A stretch of DNA of 53,375 nt from a virus, in the IMG/VR virus record IMGVR_UViG_3300048592_001369, positions 1-53,375 of that record; one strand, given 5' to 3'. Position 1 is the first letter of the stretch, and the number at the start of each line of letters is the position of its first letter. Position numbers and translations under genes: made by a program. Positions 9,635 to 51,250 of this stretch are shown here, in pieces. A model generated the notes under the pieces. It saw nothing but the letters and a program-made list of their open reading frames with translations, did no database searches and was not told the DNA's origin.

Positions 9635-9781
9635 TTGGAGACGACATGGCGTGCAGGTTCGAAGGAGCCGAAGCCGGCGGCACCGCCGCCGAAACCGAAG
9701 CCGGAGCCGGAGACGCGGGAGGAACCCCCGCTGCCGCAGGCTCCGCCCCCGCCGAGGCCGAAGCCGCCCAGCGGCAGGTAG
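9635..9781 (+). CDS. Proline-rich leader ORF overlapping the membrane-protein gene
   Basis: A 48-codon frame from TTG 9635 with GGAGG seven bases upstream. It encodes a proline/lysine/glutamate-rich chain (for example PAAPPPKPKPEPETREEPP) and ends in TAG at 9779-9781. Third positions are almost all G or C, better than in the overlapping frame of the next gene. Either it is a separate small protein, or it is the true N-terminus of the downstream two-TM protein joined by a -1 frame change. Confidence 0.4.
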   Translation: METTWRAGSKEPKPAAPPPKPKPEPETREEPPLPQAPPPPRPKPPSGR

Positions 9782-10275: not shown

Positions 10276-10425
10276 GGGCGACTGGGCCGCGGGCGGATGG
10301 CCAGAGAGTTCGACCTCCCCGTCCGGGCGGCGCACCTCGAGCCCCGCAGCCGGCGAGCACGGGTCGACGACCGAGTGCACGGCCACTGCCAGGGCTGTCG
10401 CGAAGCTGGAGGGGCGAGCGGGCAC
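10276..10425 (-). pseudogene. First gene of the leftward operon, apparently truncated
   Basis: GTG 10425 has GGAGG four bases upstream and lies directly downstream of the strong leftward promoter, so it is the first translated start of the operon. It opens VPARPSSFATALAVAVHSVV and keeps a coding signature for about 50 codons to the end of the plus-strand membrane gene. The frame then continues open but antisense to that gene, down to 9511. A short intact protein is possible only if translation stops at 9511. Confidence 0.4.
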
Positions 10426-10439
10426 TGGGCCTCCGGCCG

Positions 10440-10491
10440 TAAACGTTACGTTTATAGCCGGAGTAATGGGTTGGTGTCAACGTGTCGTTGA
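10440..10491 (-). promoter_or_regulatory. Leftward early promoter with two operators
   Basis: Reading the minus strand, a near-consensus promoter is visible: -35 TTGACA (10480-10475), an 18-bp spacer, and -10 TATAAA (10456-10451). Two inverted repeats of the same design overlap these boxes: TAAACG-TTA-CGTTTA at 10440-10454 over the -10, and TCAACG-TGT-CGTTGA at 10477-10491 over the -35. Their centres are 37 bp apart. A dimeric repressor binding both would block the promoter, like lambda OL/PL. The ribosome-binding site and GTG 10425 follow. Confidence 0.8.
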
Positions 10492-10493
10492 TA

Positions 10494-32288: not shown

Positions 32289-32922
32289 CGGCTACCTCCG
32301 TTGCGTCCGGCTGCGGGGCGAGCTCGGCGAGCGGTTCGGGCGCGAGCACTGGATCGCGGTCGAGACGCCGGGCGAGGCGGTGCGCGCCATCGAGGCGCGC
32401 CGCCCGGGATTCTTCGACTACCTCCGCTCCGTGAACGGCCTCGTGGACTTCGCTGTGATCGCGGGCGGAGAATCGCTCGGGGAGACCGACGGGGACCACC
32501 CGCTCGGCCGCCGCGATCTCGAGTTCGTGCCGGTCGTCCGGGGGGCGGGGGACAACACGAACACGCTCACCCTCGTGATCGGGGCCGTGCTGCTCGTTGC
32601 GGCGGTCGTGCTCACGTGGGGCGCCGCCACCCCAGCGATCGCAGGGTTTCTCGGCGTCGCGGAAGCGACCGTCGGAAGCGCCCTCTTCTCGATCGGGGCT
32701 ATTGGCTTCGCGATGGTGGCGAGTGGTGTCGCGGGGCTCATCGCCGGTACGCCGAAGACCGGCGACCTCGACGTCGCTCGGTCGCAGGACGCCGAGAAGC
32801 TCGCCTCGTACCAGTTCTCGGGCCCGGTCAACACGGCGGGCCAGGGACTCCCGGTGCCGATTGTCTACGGCGAGCTCATCGTCGGCTCGCACGTCGTCAG
32901 CATGGGCATCTACTCCGCATGA
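32281..32922 (+). CDS. Tail assembly protein I-like
   Basis: A 213-residue protein with the gpI pattern: YLRCVRLRGELGERFGREHW, RRPGFFDYLRSVNGLVDFAV, then a central hydrophobic region of two segments (TLVIGAVLLVAAVVLTWGAA, IGAIGFAMVASGVAGLIAG) and a C-terminal GQGLPVPIVYGELIVGS. It assists tip assembly. GTG 32281 overlaps the gpK gene by 8 bp. Confidence 0.88.
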   Translation: MSSGYLRCVRLRGELGERFGREHWIAVETPGEAVRAIEARRPGFFDYLRSVNGLVDFAVIAGGESLGETDGDHPLGRRDLEFVPVVRGAGDNTNTLTLVIGAVLLVAAVVLTWGAATPAIAGFLGVAEATVGSALFSIGAIGFAMVASGVAGLIAGTPKTGDLDVARSQDAEKLASYQFSGPVNTAGQGLPVPIVYGELIVGSHVVSMGIYSA

Positions 32923-35900: not shown

Positions 35901-36938
35901 GTGTCGGACACCGTCGGCTCGCCGGTCGTCTTCAGTGCAGAGCCCGGCACGCGCTACTATTTGCAGGCGGCCGCCTACGATGCCTTCGGTCGAGACCCGG
36001 AGCTGCTGAACGTCTCGCCCCTCGTATCGGTCGACACGGTGCGCGTGGGGCAGACCGACCTCGATGGTCTGGTCGCGGTGCGTGCGGTGATCGACGATGC
36101 GTCGATCACGACGGCCAAGATCCGGGATCTCGCGGTCGAGACGATCAAGATTGCGGGAAACGCGGTCACGCTCTTCGAAACGTCTCAGATCACCACGCGC
36201 CGCACGATCATTGCGGGCAATGGCACGGGCGAGGTCGGTCAAGGGGCGTGGGCGCCGGTGCTCACCGTGCGATTGGCGACGACGGGAGGGCCCGTCTCGA
36301 TCACGGGCCTCCTCTTCGCGCAGGCGGTCGAGGTCGGCCCGAACGCACTCGTGTCGTTTCCCACCCCGGTCGTGTATGGACAGCTGAGCCCGCTCGTCCG
36401 ATACCGGGTGGTGCGAACGAGCGTCACGCCGCCGGGCGCTCCGGTCGAGATCTTCGGCTCTGCGAGGCAGTCCATCTCGGCGCCGGGCTACGCGCTCGCC
36501 GGCGTCGTCTCGCGCATGGACTCGCCGCCGCCTGGACTCTGGGACTTCCAGCTTCAGTTGCGGTGGGAGCCCGACGTCTACGACACGGGCCTCGTCTATT
36601 TCGAGGGTTCGGTCGTGGAATCGGCGGGCACGTACTACCGGCGGGTGTTCTCCACGGGGGGCACCCGGTGGGTGGCTCACTCGGGAGTCAGCACCTCGCG
36701 AGGCCCTGCGGTGCTCTTCGTCCTGCCGGAGGGCTACGGCAGCTGGCAGGAATGCGGTCAGGTAGGGAGCTACTGGGGCCAATACATCACGGACACGGTC
36801 GTCAACATCTTCAAGGCGGGGGCTCATCCTCCCTATTTCGCGGGTACGATGCCCTACGAGCTCCGGTATTCGGCCTCTCAGCTGGTGCTCGATCTCGAGC
36901 CCGGAGGGTTTCTGACGGCGGCGGAGTTTCGGCGGTGA
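32919..36938 (+). CDS. Tail tip attachment protein, gpJ-like
   Basis: A 1339-residue protein from ATG 32919 (ATGA overlap). The N-terminal 600 residues match the gpJ core (SVRTPVEYPDSISSIQYGTI, SEGPIVGLLHGAQSIYLDET, AYANNPAWVFFDLLSNSRYG). Fibronectin-III-like segments follow (about 710-1010). A short helix (DASITTAKIRDLAVETIKIA) leads into an unrelated C-terminal beta region, the likely receptor-facing part. It is larger than lambda gpJ (1132). It is the central host-recognition protein of the tip. Confidence 0.9.
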   Translation: MRLAGPRPALAGRGGKKQKKQSVRTPVEYPDSISSIQYGTIVDVLSEGPIVGLLHGAQSIYLDETPVQNPDGSYNFQEVSYEQATGSAEQAPIGFGEGVLSEVPVNVRIKAGAWPTRLVSTPDVDRVRVTIGFAGLLEQDPATHDITGSAIALDVQVATSTGSWITAYEIRFTAKSRNRFTQSYTVHRPSSSSEAWRVRIVRHTPDATDSSKQNDTYWDSYTEITSSRLSMPLSSAVAIRLRADEFSQIPSRAYHVRGRLLKVPSNYHPEDADSLGTGAYSGDWDGTFQIAYANNPAWVFFDLLSNSRYGLGQYVPESSVDKWSLYAIARYCDELVPSGQQDIYGNDLHERRFTFNSVIQTREQAYKVMADLASVFRGMVYWSTGLITFSQDSPKSAIHQFTPSNVRDGIFSYGSSSRTARHTVALVRWNNPENYFLPEVEYVEDEDGIKRFGVNETEVTAFGCTSRGQAIRAGRWLLVTERLEKEMVTFQTGLEAAALRPGDVVNVVDPMRGGKRRGGRIVSAGPSHVEIDEPVALEPGITYDVTVMQGSRTEYVDGTTTDATLTLGAPLAGEDLTRVFVSADLDGDGGFETKVEVRGYTADLREVRIGPLEEGGGGTAVRFRVDYLLGLVTRMVTSDPGEGALLTVAPPFDVVPDPGQVFILREPNYEPRPYRVISIVENEKHLHEVQALEYHASKYEEIESGIRIEEPPDDLVPPSDLLVSPPTNLRITPEVRTGATGIRAFLSVEWSPPAGARVRAYEVRYRLNLGNWHTLPEIFGLEASIPDARPGSYDVAVYALGISGQRSTAASASYAYDEAATVALARVTGLEIEGQGNDAMFTGRSVRLAWRWNHPDREVPYGSEVGGAGSLAIPAWFDGFVVRVYDPATNALVREEQSVPDPRYTYDLDKNLADGGPRRRLRFEVAVRDLFGRASPYSQITVENPPPPALELVRVSGGFREVWLEFRAPGDADFAGVLVWASTSESFTLSDTNLVSDTVGSPVVFSAEPGTRYYLQAAAYDAFGRDPELLNVSPLVSVDTVRVGQTDLDGLVAVRAVIDDASITTAKIRDLAVETIKIAGNAVTLFETSQITTRRTIIAGNGTGEVGQGAWAPVLTVRLATTGGPVSITGLLFAQAVEVGPNALVSFPTPVVYGQLSPLVRYRVVRTSVTPPGAPVEIFGSARQSISAPGYALAGVVSRMDSPPPGLWDFQLQLRWEPDVYDTGLVYFEGSVVESAGTYYRRVFSTGGTRWVAHSGVSTSRGPAVLFVLPEGYGSWQECGQVGSYWGQYITDTVVNIFKAGAHPPYFAGTMPYELRYSASQLVLDLEPGGFLTAAEFRR

Positions 36939-37408: not shown

Positions 37409-37775
37409 CCCGGTCCGGATCTCGGTGCCGCCGCTCGGCGCGCAGACGGCCCTCGGCGCGGACTCGGCGTTTTCGCCGGCGCTCGTGGCGAAGATGCTCT
37501 GCTCGGTGCAGGCGGACTTGCAGGGCGTTCGCGCGGAGAGCGCGAAGGCGGCCGGGGCAACGGGAGATCTCGTGGCGCGGCTCGACACCGTGCTCACCAC
37601 CCTCGAGCGGATTGCGTCGGGGATCGAGGCCAGCGCCGAGCGCATGGCGCAGGCGACGGAGACGCTCAACCTGCGCGGCTGGGCGATCGAGCACCGGCTC
37701 GAAACGATGCGGCCGGTCGTCGAGGCGGCGAAGGCGGCGGTCGAGGCCGACACGGCGGCCCGCTCGTCTGGATAG
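37401..37775 (+). CDS. Coiled-coil tail-region protein
   Basis: A 124-residue protein from ATG 37401. Residues 35-120 are an uninterrupted helical, heptad-like stretch (VQADLQGVRAESAKAAGATG, LVARLDTVLTTLERIASGIE). Such proteins often form trimeric stalks or assembly factors. It overlaps the previous gene by 8 bp. No family name. Confidence 0.55.
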   Translation: MSDPVRISVPPLGAQTALGADSAFSPALVAKMLCSVQADLQGVRAESAKAAGATGDLVARLDTVLTTLERIASGIEASAERMAQATETLNLRGWAIEHRLETMRPVVEAAKAAVEADTAARSSG

Positions 37776-37797
37776 GCCCCTTCTGCGGGCCGCCGAT

Positions 37798-38724
37798 GTG
37801 CGGCTGCTCGCAACGATCCTCTCACCCGGCTACGTCCGGGAGGCGGCACGGGAGTACGGGCTCGGCGATCTGGTCCTGGGGGCGGAGGCGGCTTACCACG
37901 AGGCCCGCGGCGCGATCCGGGCCTACTTGAGGCACGTGATCTCGCGCGAGCGGCGCGCAATCGTGCGCGAGGTGCCGGAGGGTCCCCGCCGCGAGGCGGC
38001 GATCTTGGCGGCAAAGCGCGAGGCACGACGCGCGCTCGCGGCACTCGGCTACCGCTTCCACTTCCAGCGGCTGTCGCGTCAGATCTGGACGCCCTGGCGC
38101 AAACTCGCGTTCTCATGCTTCGATCCGGCGGGTGCCGGGATCGACGGCTTCTGCCGTCTCGTCTTCGACCGCGACGTTTCCGAGAACCCGGCGCTCATCG
38201 TGCGCTCCGTGCTCCGAGCCCTCGCCGATCTGCTTCGCGACGAGCCCGCGCTCAATCGGGCCATACTCGACGGCCGTGTCTGGGAGCGCACGAGTCCCGA
38301 GGTGATGGTCCACGCCGAGCTGGCGCCGGACCAGATCGAGCCCGTCGTGGTCAGCGTCGCGGGGTGCTCGGACGAGGAGGTGGGCCGGGCGCTTCGCGCA
38401 CAGCTCCGGGCGGCACTCGAATCGGCTCGCCACGAGCTCGCGCCGATCGGCCACGCGCTCATGGGGGCATGGGTTGAGGCCGGATTCCTCGCCTCGCCGG
38501 CGGGCGCGATGATGAGTGACGCCACGCGGAGCGGAATCACGCACCCGAGGCCGGCTCTGGTGCCCGGCAACGGTGTCCCGCTCGCGGTTGCCGTGGGCAC
38601 TCCGATCGGCCGCGAAGTCTGGGTCGGGATCGTTGCGGATCACCGGGCTGGCGACGCGAGCCTTTGGGGGAGGGTCCACAAGGAGCTGCGCTGTCGCGTG
38701 CCGGCACTCGTCATGCGCAGGTGA
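37798..38724 (+). CDS. Unrecognised 308-residue protein in the tail operon
   Basis: From GTG 37798 the protein begins RLLATILSPGYVREAAREYG and is helical for 120 residues with many charged residues (HVISRERRAIVREVPEGPRR). The second half is more mixed (PEVMVHAELAPDQIEPVVVS). No clear ribosome-binding site supports the start; CTG codons upstream are possible. Two residues of interest are the repeated Arg/Trp in RQIWTPWRKLAF. I cannot assign a family. It lies between the coiled-coil protein and the SDR enzyme and may work with the latter. Confidence 0.5.
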   Translation: MRLLATILSPGYVREAAREYGLGDLVLGAEAAYHEARGAIRAYLRHVISRERRAIVREVPEGPRREAAILAAKREARRALAALGYRFHFQRLSRQIWTPWRKLAFSCFDPAGAGIDGFCRLVFDRDVSENPALIVRSVLRALADLLRDEPALNRAILDGRVWERTSPEVMVHAELAPDQIEPVVVSVAGCSDEEVGRALRAQLRAALESARHELAPIGHALMGAWVEAGFLASPAGAMMSDATRSGITHPRPALVPGNGVPLAVAVGTPIGREVWVGIVADHRAGDASLWGRVHKELRCRVPALVMRR

Positions 38725-38734
38725 GGGGGGAGCT

Positions 38735-39448
38735 GTGCGGAGCGTTCTCGTGGTTGGAGGCAGCAGCGGGATCGGCGCCGCGATCGCGGACGAGTGCCGC
38801 GCGCGCGGACACGCCGTCCTGACGGCGCAGCGGCGAGAGCCGCAGGCCCCTGGCGAGTGGGTGCCGCTCGATCTTCGCTGGTCCATCGATACGATCCGAG
38901 GAGCGATCGACGAGTGCCACCGTCGGCTTGGGCGGATCGATTGGCTCGTGATTGCCGGCGGCACCGGCGCTTATATGCGCCCGCTGTTTGGAAAGAAGGA
39001 CCTGGAGGTCCACGCGTCGCAGGCCTCCGAGCAGATCGCCACGAACCTCCTTGGCCCGGCGTTCGTATTCGAGGCCGCTGCTCAGCACCTCATGCGCACG
39101 GATGGCGAGCCCACGTCTCGCGTGCTCTATATCGGCTCGACGATCGTGCGACAGCCCCCGAAGGCGCTCGCGTACTACGCGGCGAGCAAGGCCGGCGCCG
39201 AGGCGTTCTTCCGCAGCGAGGCGCGACGGTGGGCCTCGCACGGTGTGCGGGTGAACGTGCTCGCGACGGGCTGGATTCACTCGCCGATGACGCGCGAGAT
39301 CGACCAGCGGATCGTGGACAAGATCCTGCGGGCCACGGCAACCGGTCGAATGGGGAGCGCCCAGGAGGCCGCCGAGATGGCGCTCTCCATCCTCGATGGC
39401 CCGGACTTCATCTGCGGCGATGTCATCCCCATGAGCGGCGGGATCTGA
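38735..39448 (+). CDS. SDR-family NAD(P)-dependent oxidoreductase
   Basis: A 237-residue short-chain dehydrogenase. The cofactor motif is GGSSGIG (8-14). Active-site residues are N104 in ATNLLGPAF, S135 in LYIGSTIVRQ and Y148/K152 in ALAYYAASKAG. The C-terminus has the family GDVIPMSGGI ending. GTG 38735 has GGGGGGAG upstream. All catalytic residues are intact, so the enzyme is probably active on a sugar, lipid or alcohol substrate. Such enzymes are rare inside phage tail operons. It could modify a virion or surface glycan or be a passenger gene. Confidence 0.85.
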   Translation: MRSVLVVGGSSGIGAAIADECRARGHAVLTAQRREPQAPGEWVPLDLRWSIDTIRGAIDECHRRLGRIDWLVIAGGTGAYMRPLFGKKDLEVHASQASEQIATNLLGPAFVFEAAAQHLMRTDGEPTSRVLYIGSTIVRQPPKALAYYAASKAGAEAFFRSEARRWASHGVRVNVLATGWIHSPMTREIDQRIVDKILRATATGRMGSAQEAAEMALSILDGPDFICGDVIPMSGGI

Positions 39449-39519
39449 TGGCCCCGACGTTGGACGCGCGCAAGCGGACCAGGACTGCGGAGCAGTTGCT
39501 GCGGTCAAGGGGGCGGTGA
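39448..39519 (+). CDS. Possible 23-residue coupled ORF
   Basis: ATG 39448 overlaps the SDR stop (TGATG), and its stop overlaps the next start. It encodes a short basic peptide, MAPTLDARKRTRTAEQLLRS and three more residues. It may be a coupling device rather than a functional protein. Confidence 0.35.
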   Translation: MAPTLDARKRTRTAEQLLRSRGR

Positions 39520-40610
39520 TGCAGGTCCGAAGTGGCCGGGTTTCTCTCACGAACGGATCGAACACCGTCTTTGGCGTGTACGACCTTCTCCTCGTGGGGG
39601 TCTCCGGGAGCTTTGTCGCTGGCGAGAGCCTGGGCTTCTCGCCGACCGGCGCGGCCGGCGTAGTGACGAGCTGGGATCCCGGAGCAGGGCGCCTCTCGTG
39701 CCGGATCACGTCCACCGCACAGCCCGCGGCGGAGGACGCGGTGTCCCAGACGCCAACCCTCGGCGAGGGCACGGTTTCGGATGTCGCATTCGCCCCCGCG
39801 CTCTCGACCTCGGGCATCGCCCCCGGGGCCGTGTTCACGCGGCGCAGAAGTGGCGTGACCTACGAGGTCCAATCGGTGGAGGGCGCGGGGAGGCTCACGC
39901 TCGCCGGGCCCTACGCCGGAGCGACAGAAGCCGAGGCGGAGTACTCGATCACGACCTCGTTCACACCGAATGCGGGGATTCCGTACGTCGAGGATGGAGA
40001 CGTCGACGTCGGCGCAATTACACGGCGGGCCGCCTTGCGGCTCGACGCGCTGCTACAGGATGTCCTCGGGATCGGCCTCGGCGGGACGTTCTCGGGCAAT
40101 GCGCGCAAGAGCGTTCGTGTGCGCGCGGACGAGAACGGGCTCGAGCTCTTCTCGGCGGCGGACCGCAATGCCCCGTCGGAGCAGTTCACGGGCAATCTGG
40201 CCGTGGGACTGCAGCTCGCGGTGATTGGGCTCATCACCCCGTACGGCGGCATCTACGCCGAGCCGGTTCGCGTGGTTGGGGCCCCGACGCAGCCCGCTTT
40301 CGAGAACGGGTGGACCAACCACGACGATGCGGCTGCCTTGCGCTACGCGGCAGGCTTCTGGAAGCAGGCCGACGGCATGACGCACCTTCGCGGGTGCGTG
40401 ACCAAGGCGAACCTCCCCGACGGCGAGACGATCTTCACGTTGCCAGCCGGCTACCGACCGGCGCGTCTGATGGTCTTTGCGGCCAGTGAGGGTGCGGGGA
40501 ACCTGATCTTGGTCGGCGTCGCCGCGGACGGGGCCGTCCGGAAGATCTCCGGCCCCACGACTGCGGGCGCGGTCCTGCTCGACGGCATCTCGCTTCGCGC
40601 GGAGACCTGA
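39519..40610 (+). CDS. Tail fibre/baseplate-like structural protein
   Basis: A 363-residue beta-rich protein from ATG 39519. Its N-terminus has a unit VAGESLGFSPTGAAGVVTSW that recurs in the next gene. The C-terminus contains VTKANLPDGETIFTLPAGYR and a jelly-roll-like end typical of phage appendage proteins. Position after gpJ fits a side fibre or tip accessory. No catalytic motif seen. Confidence 0.6.
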   Translation: MQVRSGRVSLTNGSNTVFGVYDLLLVGVSGSFVAGESLGFSPTGAAGVVTSWDPGAGRLSCRITSTAQPAAEDAVSQTPTLGEGTVSDVAFAPALSTSGIAPGAVFTRRRSGVTYEVQSVEGAGRLTLAGPYAGATEAEAEYSITTSFTPNAGIPYVEDGDVDVGAITRRAALRLDALLQDVLGIGLGGTFSGNARKSVRVRADENGLELFSAADRNAPSEQFTGNLAVGLQLAVIGLITPYGGIYAEPVRVVGAPTQPAFENGWTNHDDAAALRYAAGFWKQADGMTHLRGCVTKANLPDGETIFTLPAGYRPARLMVFAASEGAGNLILVGVAADGAVRKISGPTTAGAVLLDGISLRAET

Positions 40611-40670
40611 TCGAGCCACGCGAATCGAGTCGGTCCACAACGCGCTCGCCGAACGCGGAAGGGGGGAGTC

Positions 40671-41225
40671 TTGTCCGAGCTCGCCGTACAGGACATGGCC
40701 GGTGCTGCGCTGGCCATCGGTTACGTGAATCACAACCCCTTGCGCAAGGCCCGGTTCTCGTCCTCGTCGGGCACCTGGCTCCCTGGCGACGTCGCCCTCT
40801 TTTCGCCCTCCGGTGCGAGCGGCCAGGTCGTGGCCCTCGATACCGGCAGTCACGAGCTCACCTACTACCTGCTCGAGGGACTTCCTGCGCTCGGTGATGG
40901 GGCGACAACCTCCTCGGGGACGGCGACGGCATGCAGTCTGCTCGAGGCGGAGGGCGACACGTTCGTCAACGATGGCCGCACCTTCCTCTTCGTCGACAAC
41001 CAGGGTGCTCAGGCCATCACGCTGCGCTTCCTCGCGCAGGCCGAGTGCTCGGATGGCTACCTGCATGACCTCGCGATCACGATCGGTCCGGGTGTCTCGG
41101 GGCCAATTGGCCCGTTCAATCGGCGGCGCTTCAACGATGGCGGTCGAGTCCGCGTGGTTTACGCCGGGACCGTGACCCCCGTCGAGTGCGGTGTTGCGGC
41201 GGTCCGCATGTTCCCGAACCAGTAG
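40671..41225 (+). CDS. Structural protein with shared beta unit
   Basis: A 184-residue protein from TTG 40671, chosen for the strong GGGGGGAG site upstream. It contains LPGDVALFSPSGASGQVVAL, similar to the unit in the previous gene. The C-terminus (GDTFVNDGRTFLFVDNQGAQ, then SGPIGPFNRRRFNDGGRVRV) resembles a phage-head or tail decoration barrel seen in many siphoviruses. Probably a virion surface protein. Confidence 0.6.
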   Translation: MSELAVQDMAGAALAIGYVNHNPLRKARFSSSSGTWLPGDVALFSPSGASGQVVALDTGSHELTYYLLEGLPALGDGATTSSGTATACSLLEAEGDTFVNDGRTFLFVDNQGAQAITLRFLAQAECSDGYLHDLAITIGPGVSGPIGPFNRRRFNDGGRVRVVYAGTVTPVECGVAAVRMFPNQ

Positions 41226-41236
41226 GAGAGCCTCGC

Positions 41237-44200
41237 ATGAAGCTTGCGCGTGTCGCCTCAATCCTCGCACTCTTGACGCGCGGATGTTCGCCTGAACCTG
41301 CGACGGCCGCCGACTCCACGGGCGGCGCCTTCACGCTGAGCGGTCTCGCCTCCTCGATCTGCCGCATCGGCTCGGCAGAAGGGGCCGCCAAGCGTCTCGC
41401 CGGGGTGGGGGCGCCGGCAGGTCGGTGCGGGAGTGCCACGAATGGCGCGCTCGCTCCTGTGATCGATGCGATCTCGAAGTCCGACTGCTCGGTCGGAGGC
41501 GGATCCACCGTGGCGGTCTGCCAGTACGACGCTGCACAGCCCGGTGCCAACAAGTGGGTGCCGGCGATCGGGAGCGGATCGGGCGACCAGATCCGCGTGA
41601 ACGGCGCGGAACAGACCGACCCGACGCTGAACGACTCGGCGCAGATCGCATTTTCGGCGTCCTCGAACACGATCACCGCGGCGATCGCCGCAGACTCGGT
41701 TGCGCTCGGCACGCACACCTCCGGAGCCTTCGTCGGCGGCGCCACTTCGGGAGGGGGCCTCGCGCTTACGGGCAGCGAGCCGGGCACGCTCGGGCTTCTC
41801 GCGTGCAGTTCCGGGCAGGTGCTCAAGCACAACGGCTCGGCCTGGGCCTGCTCCGCGGACTCCGGCGGCGATTCGTTCAGCACTTTCGCAGCGTCCTCGG
41901 GCACGAATCCGGTGGCCGACGGTTCCGCGGATACGCTTCAGATCCTCGCGGGCACGGGCGTCACGGTGACGGGCGACGCTGCTGCGGACTCGCTCACGAT
42001 CGCCTCGACGCTCGGTACGACGGTCGGACCGACCGAGATGGCGGCGAGCGATTTTGGACCCTTCTCGTGCAACGGGACGACCTGCTCGATCGACGCCGCG
42101 GCCGTCGGCGACTCGGCGGTGGCCTCGGGCGTCGACGCCGCGAAGCTTGCGAACGGCACGGTCTCGAACGCCGAGTTCCAGCGCCTGGACGGCGTCTCGT
42201 CGGCGATCCAGTCGCAGCTCGACGCGAAGGTGCCGCTTGCCGGCGGGACGATGAGCGGCCAGCTCAACATGGGCTCGCAGAAGATCACAGGTCTCGCGCC
42301 AGGGAGCGCGGCCACCGACGCCGTGCGCTACGACCAGATGATCGACGGCGCGTCGGTGGTGATGCGCGACGGAAGTCAAGCGTTCACGGCCGCGCAGAGC
42401 ATGGGCGGCAACCGAATCACGTCGCTCGGCTCGGGCACGGCGCTCACCGACGCGGCGTCCATGCGCGAGGCCGCGTCGTGCGTCGGCAACGCGGCCTGCG
42501 TGCGCGTGGCCGACGACAACGGCAACGCCGATCTCACCGCCGAGCTTCAGGCGGCGTTGAACGCCCTGCTCTGGCCGAGCGGAACGCTCACGACGGCCAC
42601 GGAGGTCGTGCTCGTGGCGCCGCCGGCCCGGACCTACACGATCAGCTCGCGGATCGTTATCTGCGGCGATACGAGTCCCCCGTCGGGGTCGACGGCGCCC
42701 GATTGCACCGGCACGCAACAGCTCCCGCGGATTCGATTCGCGGGAGCGTGGTCGTCGGCCGTCTTGAAGTGCGAGCTCGCGGCCCTCTCGAACGTCGTGC
42801 AGAACATGACGCCGTGCATTCAGATCGGCGACGCCTGGGCCGATACGTCCTTCGCGAACAAGGTGCCTCTCGCATTCGACACGCCGCTCGCCATCGAGAT
42901 GGCGACGACCTCGGACTTCGCGAACACGCTCATGGGGATCTGGTGCAACGGCTGCACGGAGGATCTCAAGGTCCGCGTTCCGGACACGAAGGCATCCTCC
43001 TTCCCTGGCCCCGCCGCCGTAGTGGCCGGAGGGGGCCTGCGCACGACGCTCGTCGTGGAAAAGAACAGCGGGAGCCTCGCCACCGTCATCTTCGACGGCG
43101 AGCAACAGGGCTCGTCGGCCTCCGTGCGCGGCTCGATCTACGGGCTCTTCATCGGATCGACGGTATCCACGGCGCTTGCGACTTGGGGCCCCGCCGACGG
43201 ATGCGACTACAACGGGCTCACGCTCTCGTGCGCGGACTTCCACCTCTTGCCGGAGACCAACGTCGCGCTCACCTCGTTTTCCGTGGAGGTCGCGGACACG
43301 GAGGGCGCCGTGATCGAGGGGGTCATGAAGGGCGGGACGGGCACCTCGAAACCGACGATCGACGTGCGGACGGGGCTCGGTGCCAACTCGATCCGCAGCC
43401 TCGCGATCCGCGCGACGTGCATTTTGAACGCGGGATCGTCCAACTCGTGCGTGCGCCTGGGGGGCGATACGGCGCCCGGCTGGACGCCGCGCGTCGCGTT
43501 TGACGGCCACGTCGAGTCGTACATCTCCGTGAACGAGCCCGACAAGGGCGGAATCGGCTGCAACTACAACAGCGCCAACTACGCGGAGATCGTGCTCGGA
43601 CCGAGCGCCTCGATGCGGAACACCGCCGGCGGGTACTCGTATCTGCTGAACAGCGTGAACCTCTATGCGCCGCATCAGGAGCCGTGCAACTACTCCGCGC
43701 CGGACACGGATACGGTGCGCGTCCGCGTCGCGGCGCAGACCCTCGGCGCGAGCCCGCCCTACTGCGCGGACCTCGTCGACGGGACGTGGCGCGCCTGCTC
43801 GGACGAGCGCACGCGGCTTCGGCGGCGGGACTGGGCCGCGTCCTGGATGCAGCGCGCGGAGGTGACACTCCACGGCGCGGCGGGAAGCGGGACGGCTTGC
43901 AACGTGCGGGTCATGAAGAATGGCACCGACCCGGCCGGCAACGAGAACAACTACTTCCCGCAGGGCTTCTCCTATCTCGTAGGCTCGGACGAGCTCGACG
44001 CCGACGGCGAAGCGGTCGCCCACAACGTGGCCGACGGCGCAGTGGCGAGCGACTACTGGCAGATTCAGGTCGACGATGACTACGCGACGTCCGGAGGCGA
44101 GGAGGCGTGCCTCACGACCCACGCTTCGGGGTACGCGACCGCAAGCGGCACGACGACATCGCTCGTCGACGGGACGAAGGCGTGGACGACGAACGAGCAC

Positions 44201-44437
44201 GTCGGGCGGCGCATCGTGTTCGATGGCGGTCGCGGCGCCTACAACATCCGTACCATCACGGCGAATACGGCGACCTCCGTCACTTGGAGCGGTGCGCTCG
44301 CGCAGGCGCCTTACTACGTCGACAACTCGCAGCGGACGAGGTATCGGATCGTCCCGAGCAGCGGGGCCTGCGCATGCGCGAGCGAGTCGCTGCCGGAGAT
44401 GACGGCCGAGCTCCGCGCGTTCCGGGTGTCGCAGTGA
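41237..44437 (+). CDS. Tail-fibre-like protein with export signal (A)
   Basis: A 1066-residue protein from ATG 41237 (GGAGAG upstream). It begins with a signal-like sequence, MKLARVASILALLTRGCSPE, with a possible lipobox cysteine at C17. Residues 28-111 form a four-cysteine unit shared with the next protein. The middle shows tail-fibre repeats such as VPLAGGTMSGQLNMGSQKIT. Residues 430-820 look like a parallel beta-helix, and the rest is cysteine-containing and beta-rich. Fibre repeats indicate an appendage; the signal would send it to the envelope, which is unusual for a virion part. Confidence 0.7.
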   Translation: MKLARVASILALLTRGCSPEPATAADSTGGAFTLSGLASSICRIGSAEGAAKRLAGVGAPAGRCGSATNGALAPVIDAISKSDCSVGGGSTVAVCQYDAAQPGANKWVPAIGSGSGDQIRVNGAEQTDPTLNDSAQIAFSASSNTITAAIAADSVALGTHTSGAFVGGATSGGGLALTGSEPGTLGLLACSSGQVLKHNGSAWACSADSGGDSFSTFAASSGTNPVADGSADTLQILAGTGVTVTGDAAADSLTIASTLGTTVGPTEMAASDFGPFSCNGTTCSIDAAAVGDSAVASGVDAAKLANGTVSNAEFQRLDGVSSAIQSQLDAKVPLAGGTMSGQLNMGSQKITGLAPGSAATDAVRYDQMIDGASVVMRDGSQAFTAAQSMGGNRITSLGSGTALTDAASMREAASCVGNAACVRVADDNGNADLTAELQAALNALLWPSGTLTTATEVVLVAPPARTYTISSRIVICGDTSPPSGSTAPDCTGTQQLPRIRFAGAWSSAVLKCELAALSNVVQNMTPCIQIGDAWADTSFANKVPLAFDTPLAIEMATTSDFANTLMGIWCNGCTEDLKVRVPDTKASSFPGPAAVVAGGGLRTTLVVEKNSGSLATVIFDGEQQGSSASVRGSIYGLFIGSTVSTALATWGPADGCDYNGLTLSCADFHLLPETNVALTSFSVEVADTEGAVIEGVMKGGTGTSKPTIDVRTGLGANSIRSLAIRATCILNAGSSNSCVRLGGDTAPGWTPRVAFDGHVESYISVNEPDKGGIGCNYNSANYAEIVLGPSASMRNTAGGYSYLLNSVNLYAPHQEPCNYSAPDTDTVRVRVAAQTLGASPPYCADLVDGTWRACSDERTRLRRRDWAASWMQRAEVTLHGAAGSGTACNVRVMKNGTDPAGNENNYFPQGFSYLVGSDELDADGEAVAHNVADGAVASDYWQIQVDDDYATSGGEEACLTTHASGYATASGTTTSLVDGTKAWTTNEHVGRRIVFDGGRGAYNIRTITANTATSVTWSGALAQAPYYVDNSQRTRYRIVPSSGACACASESLPEMTAELRAFRVSQ

Positions 44438-47130
44438 CGAGACACGTGGTGGCCCTGCTCGTTGTCGCGGCATCGGTGGCGACGGCTCAAGAGTCGAGCA
44501 CGCCCGGCGCCGCCTTCTCGGTGAGTGGGGTCGCGGCACCGATCTGCCGAATCGGAGCCGCAGAGGGAGTCGCGAGACAACTCCGCGGTGTCGGTGCGCC
44601 ACCGGGGATTTGCGGCGAAGCGCGAGACGGCGCGATGGTCTCGGTGATCGACGCCGCGTCGAAGGGAGACTGTGAGATCGGCGGAGGGTCGGTCGTCACA
44701 TCCTGCCAGTACGATGCGGATCTCCCGGGGCCGAATCGCTGGACGCCGCTCGTGGGGCCGACCGCCGGAGCGACGGGATTCGACACGCTCGTGGACGGCA
44801 CGGTCGTAAACCGAACGGGACTCCGCGTGGGCTCGGGAAGCCAGCTCCGACCGATCGCCACGGGGGTAATCGAGGCGACCGAGCAGAAGTACACGCCGGC
44901 CACTGCGGCCGACTGGCCCGGCGCGACGTGGCTGCCCACGGGCCAGGTGGCGCAGGCGCTCGACGAGCTCGCGAGCTGGGGCCGGTACTACCTCGGCCTC
45001 TACGACCAGGTCGTGGACGTGACGGGGGACGCCGATGCTTGTGCCACGATTCAGCGGCTCGCCATCCACCCGGTGCTCTCGGGTCCGGCGAAGACCTACC
45101 GCGTGTGGGTGCGAGGCACGCAGCGAAACGTGGCCTCGCTCAAGGAGTACGCGAACCATCGCGCGTGCATCGTCTTCGCCGCCTCCTCGGCCTACGACGC
45201 GAACGGGTATCCCGACGAGGCCGCCTTCCAGATCCTCAGTGACCGGAAGGTTTACCTCGACACCTACGGCCTCGATATCGGCGTCACTCAGTCGGGGCAG
45301 ACGAAGACGACGGTGGTCTTCCAGGCCGGCGGAACGCCCTCGTCGTGGTTCTCCGAGTTCCTCGGGGTCGTCTCGACCGTGCTCCACATGCGGGGGCACC
45401 CCACCTTCTCGTGCGACGGGACGGCCCCCGCTGGGTGGGAGGACAGTCGCCTCAACTCGATGAGCGGCTCGGGGCGGCTTTTTTCCGGGGGGCAGTGGGC
45501 TTCGACCTCGTGTATCGGGCTGCTCGAGAGCAACCACAAGCGGGCCGATTGGACCGACTTCCATCCGCACTTGACGAGCTCGAAGGCGAACAAGGCGAAC
45601 GTCGGCTGGGTCGCCGTGAACTCGTGGATCGTCGACCGCGGGCGGTTCTCGGTCACGGGCTTCCATACCGCCGCGCAGGTCTTTGGCAACGTGATCGGCT
45701 CGGTCACGATCCGAGCCGAGGGAGTCGGGTTTGGTCTGGTCTGCGGGGATCGACACGGCAACCGGTGCTGGGGGTTGCACGTGCGGGGGGCGCAGCTCGA
45801 AGGGGCACGGTTCTCGGAGCTCGTCGCGACCAATCCGACCGACGTGACGATCGACGGCGTGCACATCGAGTCCGAGGGGGTCTTCAGCTCGAGCGATCCC
45901 CACCACAAGGCCGCGCACGTGCTGATCGGAGCCGGGTTCGGCGAGGCCGCCGATGGCTATCGCCCGTGCTACCGGGACGAGGACCTCCCGAGCGGCGGGT
46001 CGTGCAGCTGCGCGGTGCCCGAGGCCGACCGGCGGATCGAGATCCGCTTCGTCGGGTCGACGCTACCCGGCGATCGCGGCTTTAAGAGCTTCGAGCTCGG
46101 GAACTACAGCAACCGGTCGAGCTTCGCGACGTGCGCGAGCCAGGGGAACAACACCGTCGCCTTCTCGGGCGGCGAATCGGCCACGTCGAAGAAGTTCGAC
46201 GATGCGTACTACGGCACGGATCGCATGCTGGTGGAGATGACGGGGAATCTCCTGGATCAGCCGGACGTGGGCGACACGGTGACCTGTGCCACGGCGACGG
46301 CAGAGGTCGTCGGCTATGGCGCGCTCCCGGCGGGCGTCGCCCTCGGCCCGTGCACGGTGATGAGCGACACGTACAAGAACAACCGGCTTTCCTCGAGCGT
46401 GTCGTTCACGGCGTCGGACCCGGGCTACACGTCGATGGCCGACGCCGAGGACCGGGACGCCCGCACGACGAGCGTGCTCTTCGTCTCGCACCCGGACGCC
46501 GCGATCCCGGTGGTCTTCGAATCGACGGCGATCCCCGCGTCCCAGGGCCCTCCGGTGCGATACCCGAGGAGCCTCGTCTCGGGATCAATGCTCCCGGCCT
46601 GGGAGACGCTGCGGGTCCCGATCGGCGCCTGCGACGGCACCGCGGTCGTGGGCAGCAACTTCTCCTCGGCAACCGGCATCGGTCCGACGCGCACGTGTTC
46701 GAGCGGGGCGTACAACTCGGTCCCCATGCTCTCGTTTCCGGACGGAGCGACACGCTACGCGAAGGTCGTCGTCCCCTGGCCGAACGAGATCGCGGCCTAC
46801 AACACGGAGACCGTCGACGCGGTCCTCTACTGGAAGTCGGAGGAGTCCTCGGGCGAGGCGCGGCTCGGCGTATTCCTCGACTGCGTGGGGCCGGGCGACG
46901 CACTCGATCGGGCGAACGGGAACCTGTACGCGCAGAACGTCGCGCCGAGCGCGACGCCGGGCCGTCTCGTTCGCACGGTGCTCACGCAGGCTGGCGTCGG
47001 AAACGGATGCAGCGATGGCGAGCTCTTCTATCTCGGCGTCGTCCGCTACGGGGGCGATGGCGCGGACACGCTCGCGGGGAGCGCCGAGGTGGTGGCCGTC
47101 GAGATCGCCTACCCGAGGTGGGCGCGGTGA
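44434..47130 (+). CDS. Exported beta-helix-like protein (B), paralogue of A at its N-terminus
   Basis: An 898-residue protein from GTG 44434 (GTGA overlap). It starts TRHVVALLVVAASVATAQES, a classic Sec signal with cleavage expected after ATA. Residues 25-108 match protein A: GAAFSVSGVAAPICRIGAAE with conserved cysteines, ending in TSCQYDA. The long middle is beta-helix-like (SVTIRAEGVGFGLVCGDRHG, VTIDGVHIESEGVFSSSDPH), the fold of many phage depolymerases and fibres. No clear catalytic triad is visible. It is probably an exported glycan-binding or glycan-cleaving protein. Confidence 0.7.
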   Translation: MTRHVVALLVVAASVATAQESSTPGAAFSVSGVAAPICRIGAAEGVARQLRGVGAPPGICGEARDGAMVSVIDAASKGDCEIGGGSVVTSCQYDADLPGPNRWTPLVGPTAGATGFDTLVDGTVVNRTGLRVGSGSQLRPIATGVIEATEQKYTPATAADWPGATWLPTGQVAQALDELASWGRYYLGLYDQVVDVTGDADACATIQRLAIHPVLSGPAKTYRVWVRGTQRNVASLKEYANHRACIVFAASSAYDANGYPDEAAFQILSDRKVYLDTYGLDIGVTQSGQTKTTVVFQAGGTPSSWFSEFLGVVSTVLHMRGHPTFSCDGTAPAGWEDSRLNSMSGSGRLFSGGQWASTSCIGLLESNHKRADWTDFHPHLTSSKANKANVGWVAVNSWIVDRGRFSVTGFHTAAQVFGNVIGSVTIRAEGVGFGLVCGDRHGNRCWGLHVRGAQLEGARFSELVATNPTDVTIDGVHIESEGVFSSSDPHHKAAHVLIGAGFGEAADGYRPCYRDEDLPSGGSCSCAVPEADRRIEIRFVGSTLPGDRGFKSFELGNYSNRSSFATCASQGNNTVAFSGGESATSKKFDDAYYGTDRMLVEMTGNLLDQPDVGDTVTCATATAEVVGYGALPAGVALGPCTVMSDTYKNNRLSSSVSFTASDPGYTSMADAEDRDARTTSVLFVSHPDAAIPVVFESTAIPASQGPPVRYPRSLVSGSMLPAWETLRVPIGACDGTAVVGSNFSSATGIGPTRTCSSGAYNSVPMLSFPDGATRYAKVVVPWPNEIAAYNTETVDAVLYWKSEESSGEARLGVFLDCVGPGDALDRANGNLYAQNVAPSATPGRLVRTVLTQAGVGNGCSDGELFYLGVVRYGGDGADTLAGSAEVVAVEIAYPRWAR

Positions 47131-48380
47131 GATGGCGAGCGGTGGTCTTGGTCCTTCTCGTTGCGATGCGCGCCGAGGCCGAGTCGTTTTGCTCATGCGC
47201 GACGGACTCCGGGACCTCGGTCGGTGCCTTCAAGAACTCCGAATGCGCATCGCTCGGGGTGCCAAGGTTCTCCGGCGAGCTCGACTGCGACGACGCCGAG
47301 GCGGCGGAATACGGGGCGCTAAGCGGCGCGGGCTCGCTCACCGATGTGAACGGCTTCGGGTGTCGAGGCGCCGGGTCGCTCCTCGCGCAGCGCTACGGGG
47401 CCACGGCCGCCGGCTGCGGATGGGCGGCCGGAGAGCCTGCGTCTCCGACCTACGGCGCCGCGTGTCCAAATCCGGCAGGAGTCTGCGGCGGCGAGTGCGA
47501 GCCCGCGGTCTGGCTCGCCGGGAACCCGCTCCAAGCCCCGGGAAACTTTTGCCTCGCGATGCTCTCCGGGGCAGGCGATGCGGCGGCCATCTTCGGCGGT
47601 GCGAGCGAGCCAAGTGCAGCGCTCGCCGGGAGCCGGAGCCTCGTGCTCGTCGTGCAGGCGGGGCAGACGAACGGCCTCTGGGCGAGTGGATCCGCGCCGC
47701 TCGCCTTCGAGACGCACACGTTCGCGATCTCGAAGCTCGTGGCTTTCCCCGCGAACATCGAGAGCTCCGGCGTGCTCGCGCATCCGTGGAAAGGCGATCA
47801 GTGCGGAGACTCGAACCACTGCACCGATACCTGGCTCGGGCTCGACTCCGGGGCCTCGCTCAGCCACTTCCCGTTCGTTGGCACGTCGATCTACACGCTC
47901 GACAACTGCGAGGCCGCGCGCACGGGCGCGACCTACGTCGTTGGCTCGGCCGCCTCGCTCGCGTGCAACGGATCACAGATCCGCCTGGTGGCGCCGTCCA
48001 ACTACACGCGATCGACCGATTGGCCGTTCGGGGCAGAGGGCCTCGTGCAGGTCGCGTACAAGGGATTCGGTACGGCGTCGATGGAGTGGATCGTGCTCTT
48101 CACGCCGGCCGGCGGAGCGCGCAAGACGCTTTTCCACGCCACGGGATTCGATGCACGCGGGGCGAGTCCACCGAGCCCCTACAACCCGAACGCCTACGCG
48201 AACGCGAATCAGGGCGGCGGAGAAACGCCGACAACAGTCGATACGGGGCGCGTCGTCGACAACCTGCTCATCCAATCGTGGACCGCGGGGCAAGAGCCGG
48301 CCGACGTGGTGGCGGCGATGCCGACGGCGAGTCAGATGGAGCTCGGCGCCGCGTCGGTGCCGACGCTCTGTTGCCGATGA
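47127..48380 (+). CDS. Secreted cysteine-rich protein (C)
   Basis: A 417-residue protein from GTG 47127 (GTGA overlap). The signal peptide is RWRAVVLVLLVAMRAEAESF. The mature chain has many cysteines in its first 170 residues (SFCSCATDSG, NPAGVCGGECEPAVWLAGNP), suggesting disulfides and an extracytoplasmic location. The last 200 residues look like a lectin-like beta sandwich (LVQVAYKGFGTASMEWIVLF). It shares the operon and export signal with A and B but not their N-terminal unit. Function unknown. Confidence 0.65.
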   Translation: MRWRAVVLVLLVAMRAEAESFCSCATDSGTSVGAFKNSECASLGVPRFSGELDCDDAEAAEYGALSGAGSLTDVNGFGCRGAGSLLAQRYGATAAGCGWAAGEPASPTYGAACPNPAGVCGGECEPAVWLAGNPLQAPGNFCLAMLSGAGDAAAIFGGASEPSAALAGSRSLVLVVQAGQTNGLWASGSAPLAFETHTFAISKLVAFPANIESSGVLAHPWKGDQCGDSNHCTDTWLGLDSGASLSHFPFVGTSIYTLDNCEAARTGATYVVGSAASLACNGSQIRLVAPSNYTRSTDWPFGAEGLVQVAYKGFGTASMEWIVLFTPAGGARKTLFHATGFDARGASPPSPYNPNAYANANQGGGETPTTVDTGRVVDNLLIQSWTAGQEPADVVAAMPTASQMELGAASVPTLCCR

Positions 48381-48763: not shown

Positions 48764-49138
48764 ATGTCCCCGGCGTCACCGCTCGAGCCGCAGCTCCGGC
48801 TCCTCGAGCGTCAATTCCTCTTCGCACGGCTCCTGGCTCGGCTCCTCGACCGTGCTCACGAGCTCGGCTTCGACGTGACGCTCGGGGAGGCATGGCGCTC
48901 GCTCGAGACAGCGCGCGTTCTCGCGGCTCAGGGCAAGGGTTCGGCGAACACACTGCACGCGGTCCGGCTCGCCGTCGACCTGAACCTCTTCCGCGGTGGC
49001 CACTACTGCCGCGAGACCGAGGATCACCGCCCGCTCGGCGAGTGGTGGGAGAGCCAACACGAGCTCTGCGCCTGGGGAGGGCGCTTCTCGCGGCCCGACG
49101 GCAATCACTACTCCCTGCGCTGGGACGGTCGGGCGTAG
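48764..49138 (+). CDS. Endolysin, peptidase M15 family
   Basis: A 124-residue protein of the M15/VanY-like type, which cleaves peptide bonds of peptidoglycan with zinc. GEAWRSLETA (41-50) contains the family arginine. Zinc ligands are H65 and D72 in NTLHAVRLAVDLNLF and H115 in DGNHYSLRW. It has no signal peptide, so it needs a holin for release. ATG 48764 has GGAGGG upstream. Confidence 0.85.
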   Translation: MSPASPLEPQLRLLERQFLFARLLARLLDRAHELGFDVTLGEAWRSLETARVLAAQGKGSANTLHAVRLAVDLNLFRGGHYCRETEDHRPLGEWWESQHELCAWGGRFSRPDGNHYSLRWDGRA

Positions 49139-49190: not shown

Positions 49191-49787
49191 ATGAGCAGCT
49201 CGCAAGCCGGGGGGACTCCCCCGGACGGGACGGGACCGTCCGAAATCACGGGCGCGATGGCGTGGGTCTGGGTCCGGCGCCTCGTGGCCGTCGCGATCGC
49301 CTACGGAGCTGGGTGGCTCACCACTCACACGGGGTTCACGGTCGACCTCGAAACGCAGGCCGCGGTCTCGGGCCTCGTGCTCCTCGGGATCTGGATCGGC
49401 TACGCGCGTGCGAAGCGTGCCGGGTGGCTCGGCGCGCTGGCGATCCTGGCGACGGTGCACCTCGCGTGCGCGGGATCGTGGACGGGCAGCGAAGCCGGGT
49501 CGTCGCCGAGCCTCTCGCAGCGCCAGTCCTACCAGGTGGCATGGTTCACGTACGCGATCCTGCGCTCGGGAGCACTCGCGTACTGCGGGCTTCCAGGCAA
49601 CGCCGAGACGTCGACGTGTGTCGAGGTCGAGGCCGCGATTCGTGTCGCGGACGCTGCGATCGAGGCCACGCGCCTTCTCGCCGCGGACGGGACCGCCGTC
49701 TCGCCGACGGTCGCCTACGCGGAGGGCCAGCGAGTGCTCGAGGGGGCGGTGCCCGTCCTCGAGCGCGCGCAGGCCGCCGCGCCGTGA
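49191..49787 (+). CDS. Holin-like protein with lipoprotein-like middle
   Basis: A 198-residue protein from ATG 49191 (GAAGGAG upstream). It has two TM helices (residues about 29-45 and 55-72) and a third hydrophobic segment GALAILATVHLACAGS with C93, which looks like a lipoprotein signal. The last 100 residues are soluble and helical (CVEVEAAIRVADAAIEATRL). The first half fits a holin next to the endolysin. The join of holin-like and lipoprotein-like parts in one frame is odd; it may be a fusion. Confidence 0.6.
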   Translation: MSSSQAGGTPPDGTGPSEITGAMAWVWVRRLVAVAIAYGAGWLTTHTGFTVDLETQAAVSGLVLLGIWIGYARAKRAGWLGALAILATVHLACAGSWTGSEAGSSPSLSQRQSYQVAWFTYAILRSGALAYCGLPGNAETSTCVEVEAAIRVADAAIEATRLLAADGTAVSPTVAYAEGQRVLEGAVPVLERAQAAAP

Positions 49788-50074
49788 AGGCGATCACGGT
49801 GGCCGCCGAGGCCGAGTCCGACGGCATGCCTCCGGGAGCGCTGCAGCCCATCGAGCGCGAGGGGCGGATCGCGATGCTCGCCGTCGCGTGCCCCGGCTGT
49901 GGGTCGATCTCGGCCATCGACATTCGGCCCCACGGAGTGCCGGGGCGGGCGGCGTGGGATCTTCTCGGATGGCCGGGTTCGCCGAGCCTTCAGCCGAGTC
50001 TCCACCACGCGCGCGATCTCGGAGGCTGCGGCTGGCACGGCTGGCTCGAGCAGGGCGAATGGCGCGCCGTGTAG
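49784..50074 (+). CDS. DUF6527-like small protein
   Basis: A 96-residue protein from GTG 49784 (GTGA overlap). It has CPGCGSISAIDIRP, then SPSLQPSLHHARDLGGCGWH, similar to the cysteine/histidine and PSL-x-PS pattern of DUF6527. The four Cys/His groups could bind zinc. Such proteins accompany phage lysis or late accessory genes; their role is unknown. Confidence 0.6.
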   Translation: MKAITVAAEAESDGMPPGALQPIEREGRIAMLAVACPGCGSISAIDIRPHGVPGRAAWDLLGWPGSPSLQPSLHHARDLGGCGWHGWLEQGEWRAV

Positions 50075-50331
50075 TCCCGGGTGCCGTGCTGGCGATCGTG
50101 CTCGGATCGGGCGCCGGGTGCGCGGGGCTCGTGACCGACCACGAAGGGCGCGGTGCCGCTTTCGCGGTGGGCGACGCGCGCGTCGAATGGTGCCCACGGA
50201 CCGAGTACGCGTGCGAGCCCAATCCCCCGTGTTCGCTCGTCAAGGGCGGGACCCTGTCGTCGAACTTCGGCGACGTGCTCGCGGCGGCCGCCGCTGCGTT
50301 CGCGGCATGGTTCGGTGGTGGGATCCTATGA
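50059..50331 (+). CDS. Small lipoprotein-like or membrane protein
   Basis: A 90-residue protein from ATG 50059. It begins MARRVVPGAVLAIVLGSGAG followed by C21, a weak lipobox, and ends with a second hydrophobic stretch (VLAAAAAAFAAWFGGG). It overlaps both neighbours. It could be an outer-membrane spanin component or an anchored lysis protein; no decisive motif is visible. Confidence 0.55.
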   Translation: MARRVVPGAVLAIVLGSGAGCAGLVTDHEGRGAAFAVGDARVEWCPRTEYACEPNPPCSLVKGGTLSSNFGDVLAAAAAAFAAWFGGGIL

Positions 50332-50618
50332 GGATCACGCTCACTGACCTCCTCGTGAGGCGCGGGCAATCCGACTCCGTCCTCCGCGAGCTCGTCGAGC
50401 GCGAGCTCCGCCGCAAGCGCTGGTCTCGGGTCTACTGGGCGCGCCCCGAGAACGCAGCACGCGCACGCGCGGGCCGAACCACGCCCGAGGCGAAGGCGCG
50501 AGCACGGGAGTACGCCAAGCGTCCCGAGGTCGTCGCCGCGCGCCGCGAGTACGAGAGCGCGCCCGAGACGCGCGAGAAGCGACGCCTCCGGGCGCAGGAG
50601 AGGAGGGCCGCACGATGA
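50328..50618 (+). CDS. Small, very basic protein
   Basis: A 96-residue Arg-rich protein from ATG 50328 (ATGA overlap). It contains repeated stretches such as KARAREYAKRPEVVAARREY. It may bind nucleic acid, for instance as a phage HNH-lacking relative or histone-like protein, but no domain is certain. Confidence 0.5.
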   Translation: MRITLTDLLVRRGQSDSVLRELVERELRRKRWSRVYWARPENAARARAGRTTPEAKARAREYAKRPEVVAARREYESAPETREKRRLRAQERRAAR

Positions 50619-51250
50619 GACAGGCTCGAGTGATTCTCGCGATCCTGCTGGGGGCGCTCGCGGCAAGTGGTGCCCACGCCGAGGAGTGCCACGCGAAGAC
50701 GGCCATTTGGCCGGAGGCCTCGGGGCCCGTGGCGGGCTACGAGGTCGAGGTCTCGCGCGACGGCGGTGCGTTTGCGCCGGCCGGCGATGCGGCGGCCACG
50801 ACGGCGACGATCGAGGCCTCGGTCGGCCAGGTCGTGCGGGTGAGGGTGCGAGCCTTCGCGACGGATGCGACGCCCCGGCGCACGGGGCCGTGGTCCCCCG
50901 AGAGCGAGGCCGTCGTCTTCTGCCCTCCGCTCGGCGCGCCCGGTGCTCCGACGTGGAGTGCCGGCGAATCGGCCGTCTTACTGACCGAGCCCTCGCAGGA
51001 TTCCGCTGGGACGCCGCTCTCCGCCGCGAACCCACTCTGGGCGTGTGTCGCGTGGTCGCCCGGCGAGCCCGCGGACTGGAGGCGGCCGACGTCGAGTGCA
51101 GGCGGGGGGACGCACGTGGTGGCCTATCCCACGCTCGTCGCCGATCTCCCGCGGCGCTACGTCGCGCGCTGCATCTTCGCTGCCGGATGGGGGCCCGAGG
51201 CGACGGCCGTGGCTTCCGTCGCGTTCGCGCCAGACGCGGCCGGGCCGTGA
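50615..51250 (+). CDS. Secreted fibronectin-III-like protein
   Basis: A 211-residue protein from ATG 50615 (ATGA overlap). Signal peptide RQARVILAILLGALAASGAH with cleavage expected after AHA. The mature part resembles one Fn3-like beta sandwich (VAGYEVEVSRDGGAFAPAGD, TIEASVGQVVRVRVRAFATD) plus a second cysteine-containing region. It is the fourth exported protein encoded by the late operon. Possibly binds the cell surface. Function unknown. Confidence 0.6.
   Translation: MRQARVILAILLGALAASGAHAEECHAKTAIWPEASGPVAGYEVEVSRDGGAFAPAGDAAATTATIEASVGQVVRVRVRAFATDATPRRTGPWSPESEAVVFCPPLGAPGAPTWSAGESAVLLTEPSQDSAGTPLSAANPLWACVAWSPGEPADWRRPTSSAGGGTHVVAYPTLVADLPRRYVARCIFAAGWGPEATAVASVAFAPDAAGP

Follow-up and report, generated by a model that had tools for sequence, protein, structure and literature searches.

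Three consecutive genes for predicted exported, cysteine-rich and partly fibre-like proteins in the late operon of a lambda-like siphophage

Introduction

The tails of tailed phages are assembled in the cytoplasm, and their fibres are generally taken to be parts of the particle that are assembled there as well. A group of three consecutive genes in the virus record IMGVR_UViG_3300048592_001369 raises the question of whether a tailed phage may also send fibre-like proteins out of the cytoplasm, and what such proteins would do there. The initial annotation of this locus had described three exported, cysteine-rich proteins in a phage late operon, one of them with tail-fibre repeats, and had named them as a candidate for an undescribed system. 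As possible readings it had listed released decoys, surface proteins of a lysogen, envelope-stage assembly and fibre genes converted into secreted effectors. Here, we analysed the record at its full length of 53,375 bases (GC 69%; hereafter the window) and compared the three proteins, A, B and C, with other phage sequences and with known exported fibres and receptor-blocking proteins.

Methods

Export leaders were scored with a home-made rule that takes in the charge of the n-region, the hydrophobicity of the h-region and the signal-peptidase site. By this rule, known leaders from E. coli, seven in all, score between 5.0 and 7.4. The window-wide scan covered the 1878 start codons that are followed by 60 or more codons before the stop. 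A sample from IMG/VR provided 119 open reading frames (ORFs) with the L.GGTM.G.LNM repeat, 98 of them with an intact 5′ end, and leaders were counted at scores of 6 or more. For comparison, five annotated phages with a related capsid or gpJ were scored with their own annotated starts.

Results

Judged by its gene content, the phage is a tailed, lambda-like siphophage. Its lambda-type head and tail genes include a GpA-type terminase, a lambda portal, a protease-capsid fusion, a tape measure gene and gpJ. The gpJ-like central tail tip protein is encoded at 32301-36938 (+ strand), with a true start that is probably downstream of 32301. It is followed, in order, by an SDR/FabG-like gene, two tail/fibre genes that lack a signal peptide (SP), A, B, C, an M15 endolysin gene and a membrane protein gene, all on the + strand. 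The first of the SP-less genes (39516-40610, +) is a conventional minor tail/fibre gene without a leader that matches phrog_5339 (E 1.4e-7) and phrog_11445 (E 1.8e-7); the second (40671-41225, +) encodes a conventional tail protein (phrog_16194, E 1.5e-4). Their products have an N-terminal region in common (local score 78, against 55 or less for shuffles), and the two genes look like a duplication pair. On the other side of the trio, the M15 peptidase endolysin gene (48764-49138, +) was recognised by a family match, its start being inferred from sequence, and the membrane protein (49191-49787, +), possibly a holin, shows as many as three TM segments on inspection by eye and has no family match. 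A scan for promoter-like sites between 36.9 and 51.5 kb found none with the E. coli-type consensus, a result of little weight when the host is rich in GC. An RDF-like gene and an M78/IrrE-like gene in the record hint at a temperate phage.

Several other genes of the record were recorded in passing. The SDR/FabG-like oxidoreductase gene within the tail module (38735-39448; phrog_3142 E 8.5e-35, Pfam adh_short_C2 E 8e-27) is preceded by a 316-aa ORF at about 37774-38724 that is without a clear family. A HerA/FtsK-like AAA protein at 1719-3596 (- strand) has a terminase-like match (phrog_2666, E 4e-21), the real terminase being at 18872, and a product encoded at 10494-11330 (- strand) combines a GYF_2 domain with a weak match to BRCT, which is odd for a phage.

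The trio occupies the + strand exactly where the initial annotation had placed it: A (1066 aa) at 41237-44437, B (898 aa) at 44434-47130 and C (417 aa) at 47127-48380. A starts with an ATG that has an AGGAG ribosome site, and the GTG starts of B and C overlap the stops of A and B, respectively, as GTGA. Such overlaps are a common sign of translational coupling. Since each GTG overlaps the previous stop, a true start downstream of the hydrophobic segment is unlikely in B and C, and the ribosome site argues against one in A. On this evidence, A, B and C are real, coupled late genes, flanked by the conventional fibre genes on one side and by the endolysin/holin region on the other.

Sec export of B and C is strongly supported by their predicted leaders. 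The leader of B (44434-44487, +) reads MTRHVVALLVVAASVATA, with cleavage before QESS, and scores 6.9; that of C (47127-47180, +) reads MRWRAVVLVLLVAMRAEA, with cleavage before ESFC, and scores 6.2. Neither protein has a Cys at the cleavage site. Not one of 6762 pseudo-starts placed inside phage proteins reached a score of 6. The leader of A (41237-41308, +; MKLARVASILALLTRGCSPEPATA, with cleavage before ADS) has a plausible ATA|A cleavage site after a long c-region and scores 4.1, a value that is reached by 2.4% of internal pseudo-starts, so it is unproven when taken alone. No canonical lipobox is present at C17 of A, which is preceded by T-R-G. A and B are, however, 53% identical over residues 9-116 (E 2e-32), a stretch that takes in part of the leader. 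The Sec signal peptides that had been assigned to all three proteins are thus strong in B and C, while that of A, weak on its own, rests on paralogy with B and on the plausible cleavage site.

Start codons scoring at least 5.8 all fall in 44.4-51.3 kb of the window. They are those of B and C, one in a TM segment of the membrane protein (49377) and two that belong to ORFs beyond the lysis genes. One of these, at 50059-50331 (+), encodes a small Cys-rich, lipoprotein-like product (MARRVVPGAVLAIVLGSGAG followed by C) that may be a further exported protein. The other (50615-51250, +) encodes protein D, of 211 aa, with a strong leader (MRQARVILAILLGALAASGAHA followed by EECH; score 7.2). By eye, the sequence of D has the look of fibronectin type III repeats.

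The initial annotation had also judged the chains of A, B and C to suit the periplasm or the outside, and their Cys content agrees with this. After the leader there are 28 Cys in A, 20 in B, 16 (3.8%) in C and 4 in D, all even numbers. Cys makes up 2.76% of mature A-C, whereas the SP-less late genes reach 0.66% (Fisher P 1.3e-12), and four Cys are conserved in an N-terminal domain that A and B have in common. This enrichment and the even numbers fit an oxidising compartment, and we infer that A-C are disulphide-bonded. A placement of Cys in close pairs was also considered and found unsupported (P 0.47, 0.94 and 0.07), so that the enrichment alone holds. Further, a fibre ORF in the L066 sequence (6813-10790) has repeated Cys-rich segments and 2.8% Cys yet is without a leader, which makes Cys content a support for export and not a proof of it.

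The domain common to A (41321-41572, +) and B (44506-44757, +) directly follows the leader and covers about 84-90 aa; C has no clear share in it. In A it is followed by a Cys-flanked linker with the motif CSSGQVLKHNGSAWAC at aa 190-205 (41804-41851, +), by the tail-fibre repeat VPLAGGTMSGQLNMGS at aa 332-347 (42230-42277, +), which is of the L.GGTM.G.LNM type, and by a long body. The repeat is present as had been reported, with tail-fibre PHROGs matching A beside it (E 1.6e-5), but in a single copy, so the plural "repeats" was overstated. Annotated phages match A in the repeat part only (tblastn). Searches of Pfam, PHROGs, NCBIfam and PDB sequences gave no family match to A-C as a whole or to their bodies, and neither family nor sequence database searches gave a convincing match to B or C. 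Degenerate scans of IMG/VR and tblastn against phages and plasmids returned no convincing homologue of A, B or C beyond the fibre repeat. Single-sequence AF2 models of B and C, made with no homologues, had a pLDDT of 31-33, too low for a usable structure. B is counted as fibre-type only because it has the leader and N-terminal domain in common with A, and C, which does not clearly have either of these in common with A, is called fibre-like from its position only.

Several candidate relationships were discarded. The similarity between A and C (equalled by 35 of 1000 shuffles), that between B and the fibre gene at 39516 (1 of 1000 shuffles as good) and that between B and the middle protein of the L128 trio described below are compositional or unconvincing. 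Five Bacteroidales matches from a degenerate scan of genome contigs proved to be ferredoxin-type Cys motifs, and a beta-helix that was suspected by eye in A is backed by no family.

How rare is a leader on such a protein? In the IMG/VR sample, just two of the 98 5′-complete repeat ORFs (L072 and L128) scored at least 6, the other 96 being without a clear leader, and the median Cys content of the sampled repeat ORFs was 0.14% versus 2.7% in A. The L072 ORF encodes a tail-collar fibre of 364 aa (PHROG match at E 7e-19), lies inside a tail module and has the leader MRNHLGRRLALLAMLVLATFGVARA followed by Q. The ORF of L128 (IMGVR_UViG_3300024518_002683) encodes an 899-aa protein with a leader, the GGTM repeat and 15 Cys, and it is the middle member of a trio of adjacent genes that all have strong leaders (scores of 7.25, 6.62 and 7.3) and that directly follows the tail genes at the end of the tail module. 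The portal of L128 is different from that of the window phage, and such relatives as it has in cultured phages are distant. The DA-x4-D-x3-GGGS spacing of A and B recurs in the first L128 protein, the only such match in 2.9 million residues outside the window, and the middle L128 protein contains a segment loosely similar to the Cys-flanked motif of A. Outside the repeat and these motifs the overall similarity of the two trios is not significant; their homology is therefore possible but unproven. Between the head and tail genes of L128, an ORF at 6115-6768 appears glycosyltransferase-like by eye.

An independent phage contig thus holds an analogous trio, which suggests that the arrangement is recurrent and not a one-off. 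Leader scoring of the five annotated relatives found no trio, and no large exported protein between gpJ and the lysis genes. The one strong leader in that region of the relatives belongs to a small lipoprotein-like ORF beside a peptidoglycan hydrolase gene, and serves as a positive control.

Discussion

The interpretation offered by the initial annotation is partly supported by our analysis. Export of fibre-like proteins from the late operon is well supported. It is also unusual, given the scarcity of leaders among repeat ORFs and the lack of a trio in the five relatives, but the L128 trio makes it rare and recurrent; what the proteins do can be proposed from sequence and from analogy. We tentatively favour a reading in which the trio encodes adhesins of the fibre type, secreted and rich in disulphides, that are made late in infection and shield progeny from debris and superinfection. 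The three would be co-translated from the late operon, as the sequence supports, and moved out of the cytoplasm by Sec, a step that is strongly supported for B and C and leans on paralogy for A. By this export they would escape cytoplasmic tail assembly. They would then fold in the periplasm with disulphides, A and B probably as trimers on their short common N-terminal domain with distal bodies that differ, and would reach the cell surface or be freed at lysis. Their distal parts may bind glycans or receptors of the host surface. With the receptors or glycans of a dying cell occupied by such fibres, whether released or surface-bound, fewer progeny would be lost on debris and superinfection would be reduced, a role like that of T5 Llp. 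Our reason for favouring an action around lysis is the proximity of the lysis genes.

The leaders, coupled starts, Cys enrichment, fibre repeat in A and L128 trio are all consistent with secreted adhesins. So are the presence of separate SP-less fibre genes upstream and the position of the trio between fibres and endolysin. By analogy, support also comes from the anatomy of A and B, which have leader and N-terminal domain in common and bodies that differ, like the MAT fibres of Bdellovibrio, and from phage T5, where the gene for the receptor-blocking protein Llp adjoins that for the receptor-binding protein. Against this reading stand the small size, lipoprotein nature and early expression of Llp, all unlike A-C, as well as the lack of a family match to the bodies of A-C, the low pLDDT and the weakness of the leader of A when taken alone. 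In more general terms, it is possible, and we suggest it with still more reserve, that some tailed phages carry a dedicated module of exported fibres, with Sec leaders and disulphides, that is placed between virion fibres and lysis genes and acts outside the particle. Fibre function would then be divided over two pools, one in the cytoplasm and one in the periplasm, the latter forming a receptor or debris shield or attaching to virions after lysis.

Alternatively, A-C could be virion fibres that mature in the periplasm, being exported and disulphide-bonded there and joining the tails once the inner membrane has collapsed. We consider this unlikely, although it is the alternative that survives best. 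The repeat of A is one of virion fibres and the L128 trio directly follows tail genes. Moreover, L072 joins a leader to an ordinary tail-collar fibre encoded within a tail module; this suits a virion role equally well and counts against secreted adhesins. On the other hand, the window phage has SP-less fibre genes as well, and the cytoplasmic assembly of tails speaks against such a late addition.

Slightly less probable still is lysogenic conversion, in which a temperate phage would give its lysogen new fibres on the surface, used for attachment, as phage-borne counterparts of MAT. A and B follow the MAT plan of signal peptide, common domain and diverse, phage-fibre-like tips, and the RDF-like and M78/IrrE-like genes agree with a temperate phage. 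Nevertheless, A-C lie inside the late operon with no promoter-like site of the E. coli-type consensus nearby, and no YadA anchor was found. It is improbable that A-C are instead secreted effectors or depolymerases that act on neighbouring cells or extracellular polymer and have no part in adsorption. Such a role would suit secreted proteins with large bodies rich in Cys, one of which has a fibre repeat, and tailspikes are often depolymerases; however, no enzyme family matched in Pfam, PHROGs, NCBIfam or PDB sequences. Finally, that the leaders are spurious, with true starts downstream or uncleaved hydrophobic stretches on ordinary cytoplasmic fibres, is very improbable: the low score of A would allow it, but the GTGA-coupled starts, the ribosome site of A, the strong scores of B and C, the Cys enrichment (P 1e-12) and the independent L128 trio all speak against it.

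A recurrent module of exported fibres rich in disulphides would give the biology of phage adsorption a second compartment, and a new, testable means of guarding progeny against debris. It would also offer a route from phage fibres to bacterial surface adhesins such as MAT. For host-range inference the trio calls for caution, as fibre-like genes in metagenomic phages may not encode receptor-binding proteins of the virion.

Comparison with known systems

Our search of open-access literature turned up no account of tailed phages whose tail-fibre modules bear signal peptides, so the initial annotation's term "undescribed" holds within that scope, although parts of the system have precedents in Llp and MAT. 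A resembles conventional L.GGTM.G.LNM tail fibres in its repeat and local tail-fibre PHROG matches, and differs from them in its leader and its Cys content. Within the trio, repeat and tail PHROG match occur in A only, and the three proteins depart from virion tail fibres in carrying predicted signals for leaving the cytoplasm. Trimeric autotransporter adhesins of the YadA family were considered as well, since the repeat of A gave a weak YadA_stalk match (E 0.034) that does not reach the cut-off. This reading was rejected because the YadA anchor barrel is lacking; A, B and C have no Pfam match.

The Llp proteins of T5 and BF23 are small, exported, receptor-blocking lipoproteins whose genes adjoin receptor-binding or tail genes, and the role proposed for them is to keep progeny from binding receptor on debris and to prevent superinfection (PMC9586334, PMC4728585). 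Similarly, A-C are predicted to be exported and their genes lie directly downstream of the fibre genes at 39516-41225. In contrast to Llp, A-C are 417-1066 aa long, partly fibre-like, encoded in the late operon and without a canonical lipobox. Superinfection-exclusion proteins are expressed early (PMC9586334, PMC4728585), so the timing probably differs too.

The MAT proteins of Bdellovibrio bacteriovorus are exported, phage-tail-fibre-like proteins in which a signal peptide is followed by a conserved, beta-rich N-terminal domain of ~130 aa and by differing distal parts, and they form an intertwined trimeric beta-prism fibre with an adhesive tip (PMC10769870). In 13 of the 21 MATs the C-terminus carries an S74 chaperone-protease, which the other eight lack (PMC10769870). 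A-C differ in being encoded in a phage late operon and, unlike most MATs, in that PF13884 (S74) is absent from the record. Since eight MATs also do without S74, its absence does not exclude kinship. We nevertheless do not claim MAT membership, because S74 is absent and the N-terminal domains, of ~130 aa in MAT and about 84-90 aa in common between A and B, are compared by description only. In the order of their parts A and B resemble MAT, with a predicted signal peptide, a common domain directly after it and different distal parts, and they likewise have a relationship to phage fibres.
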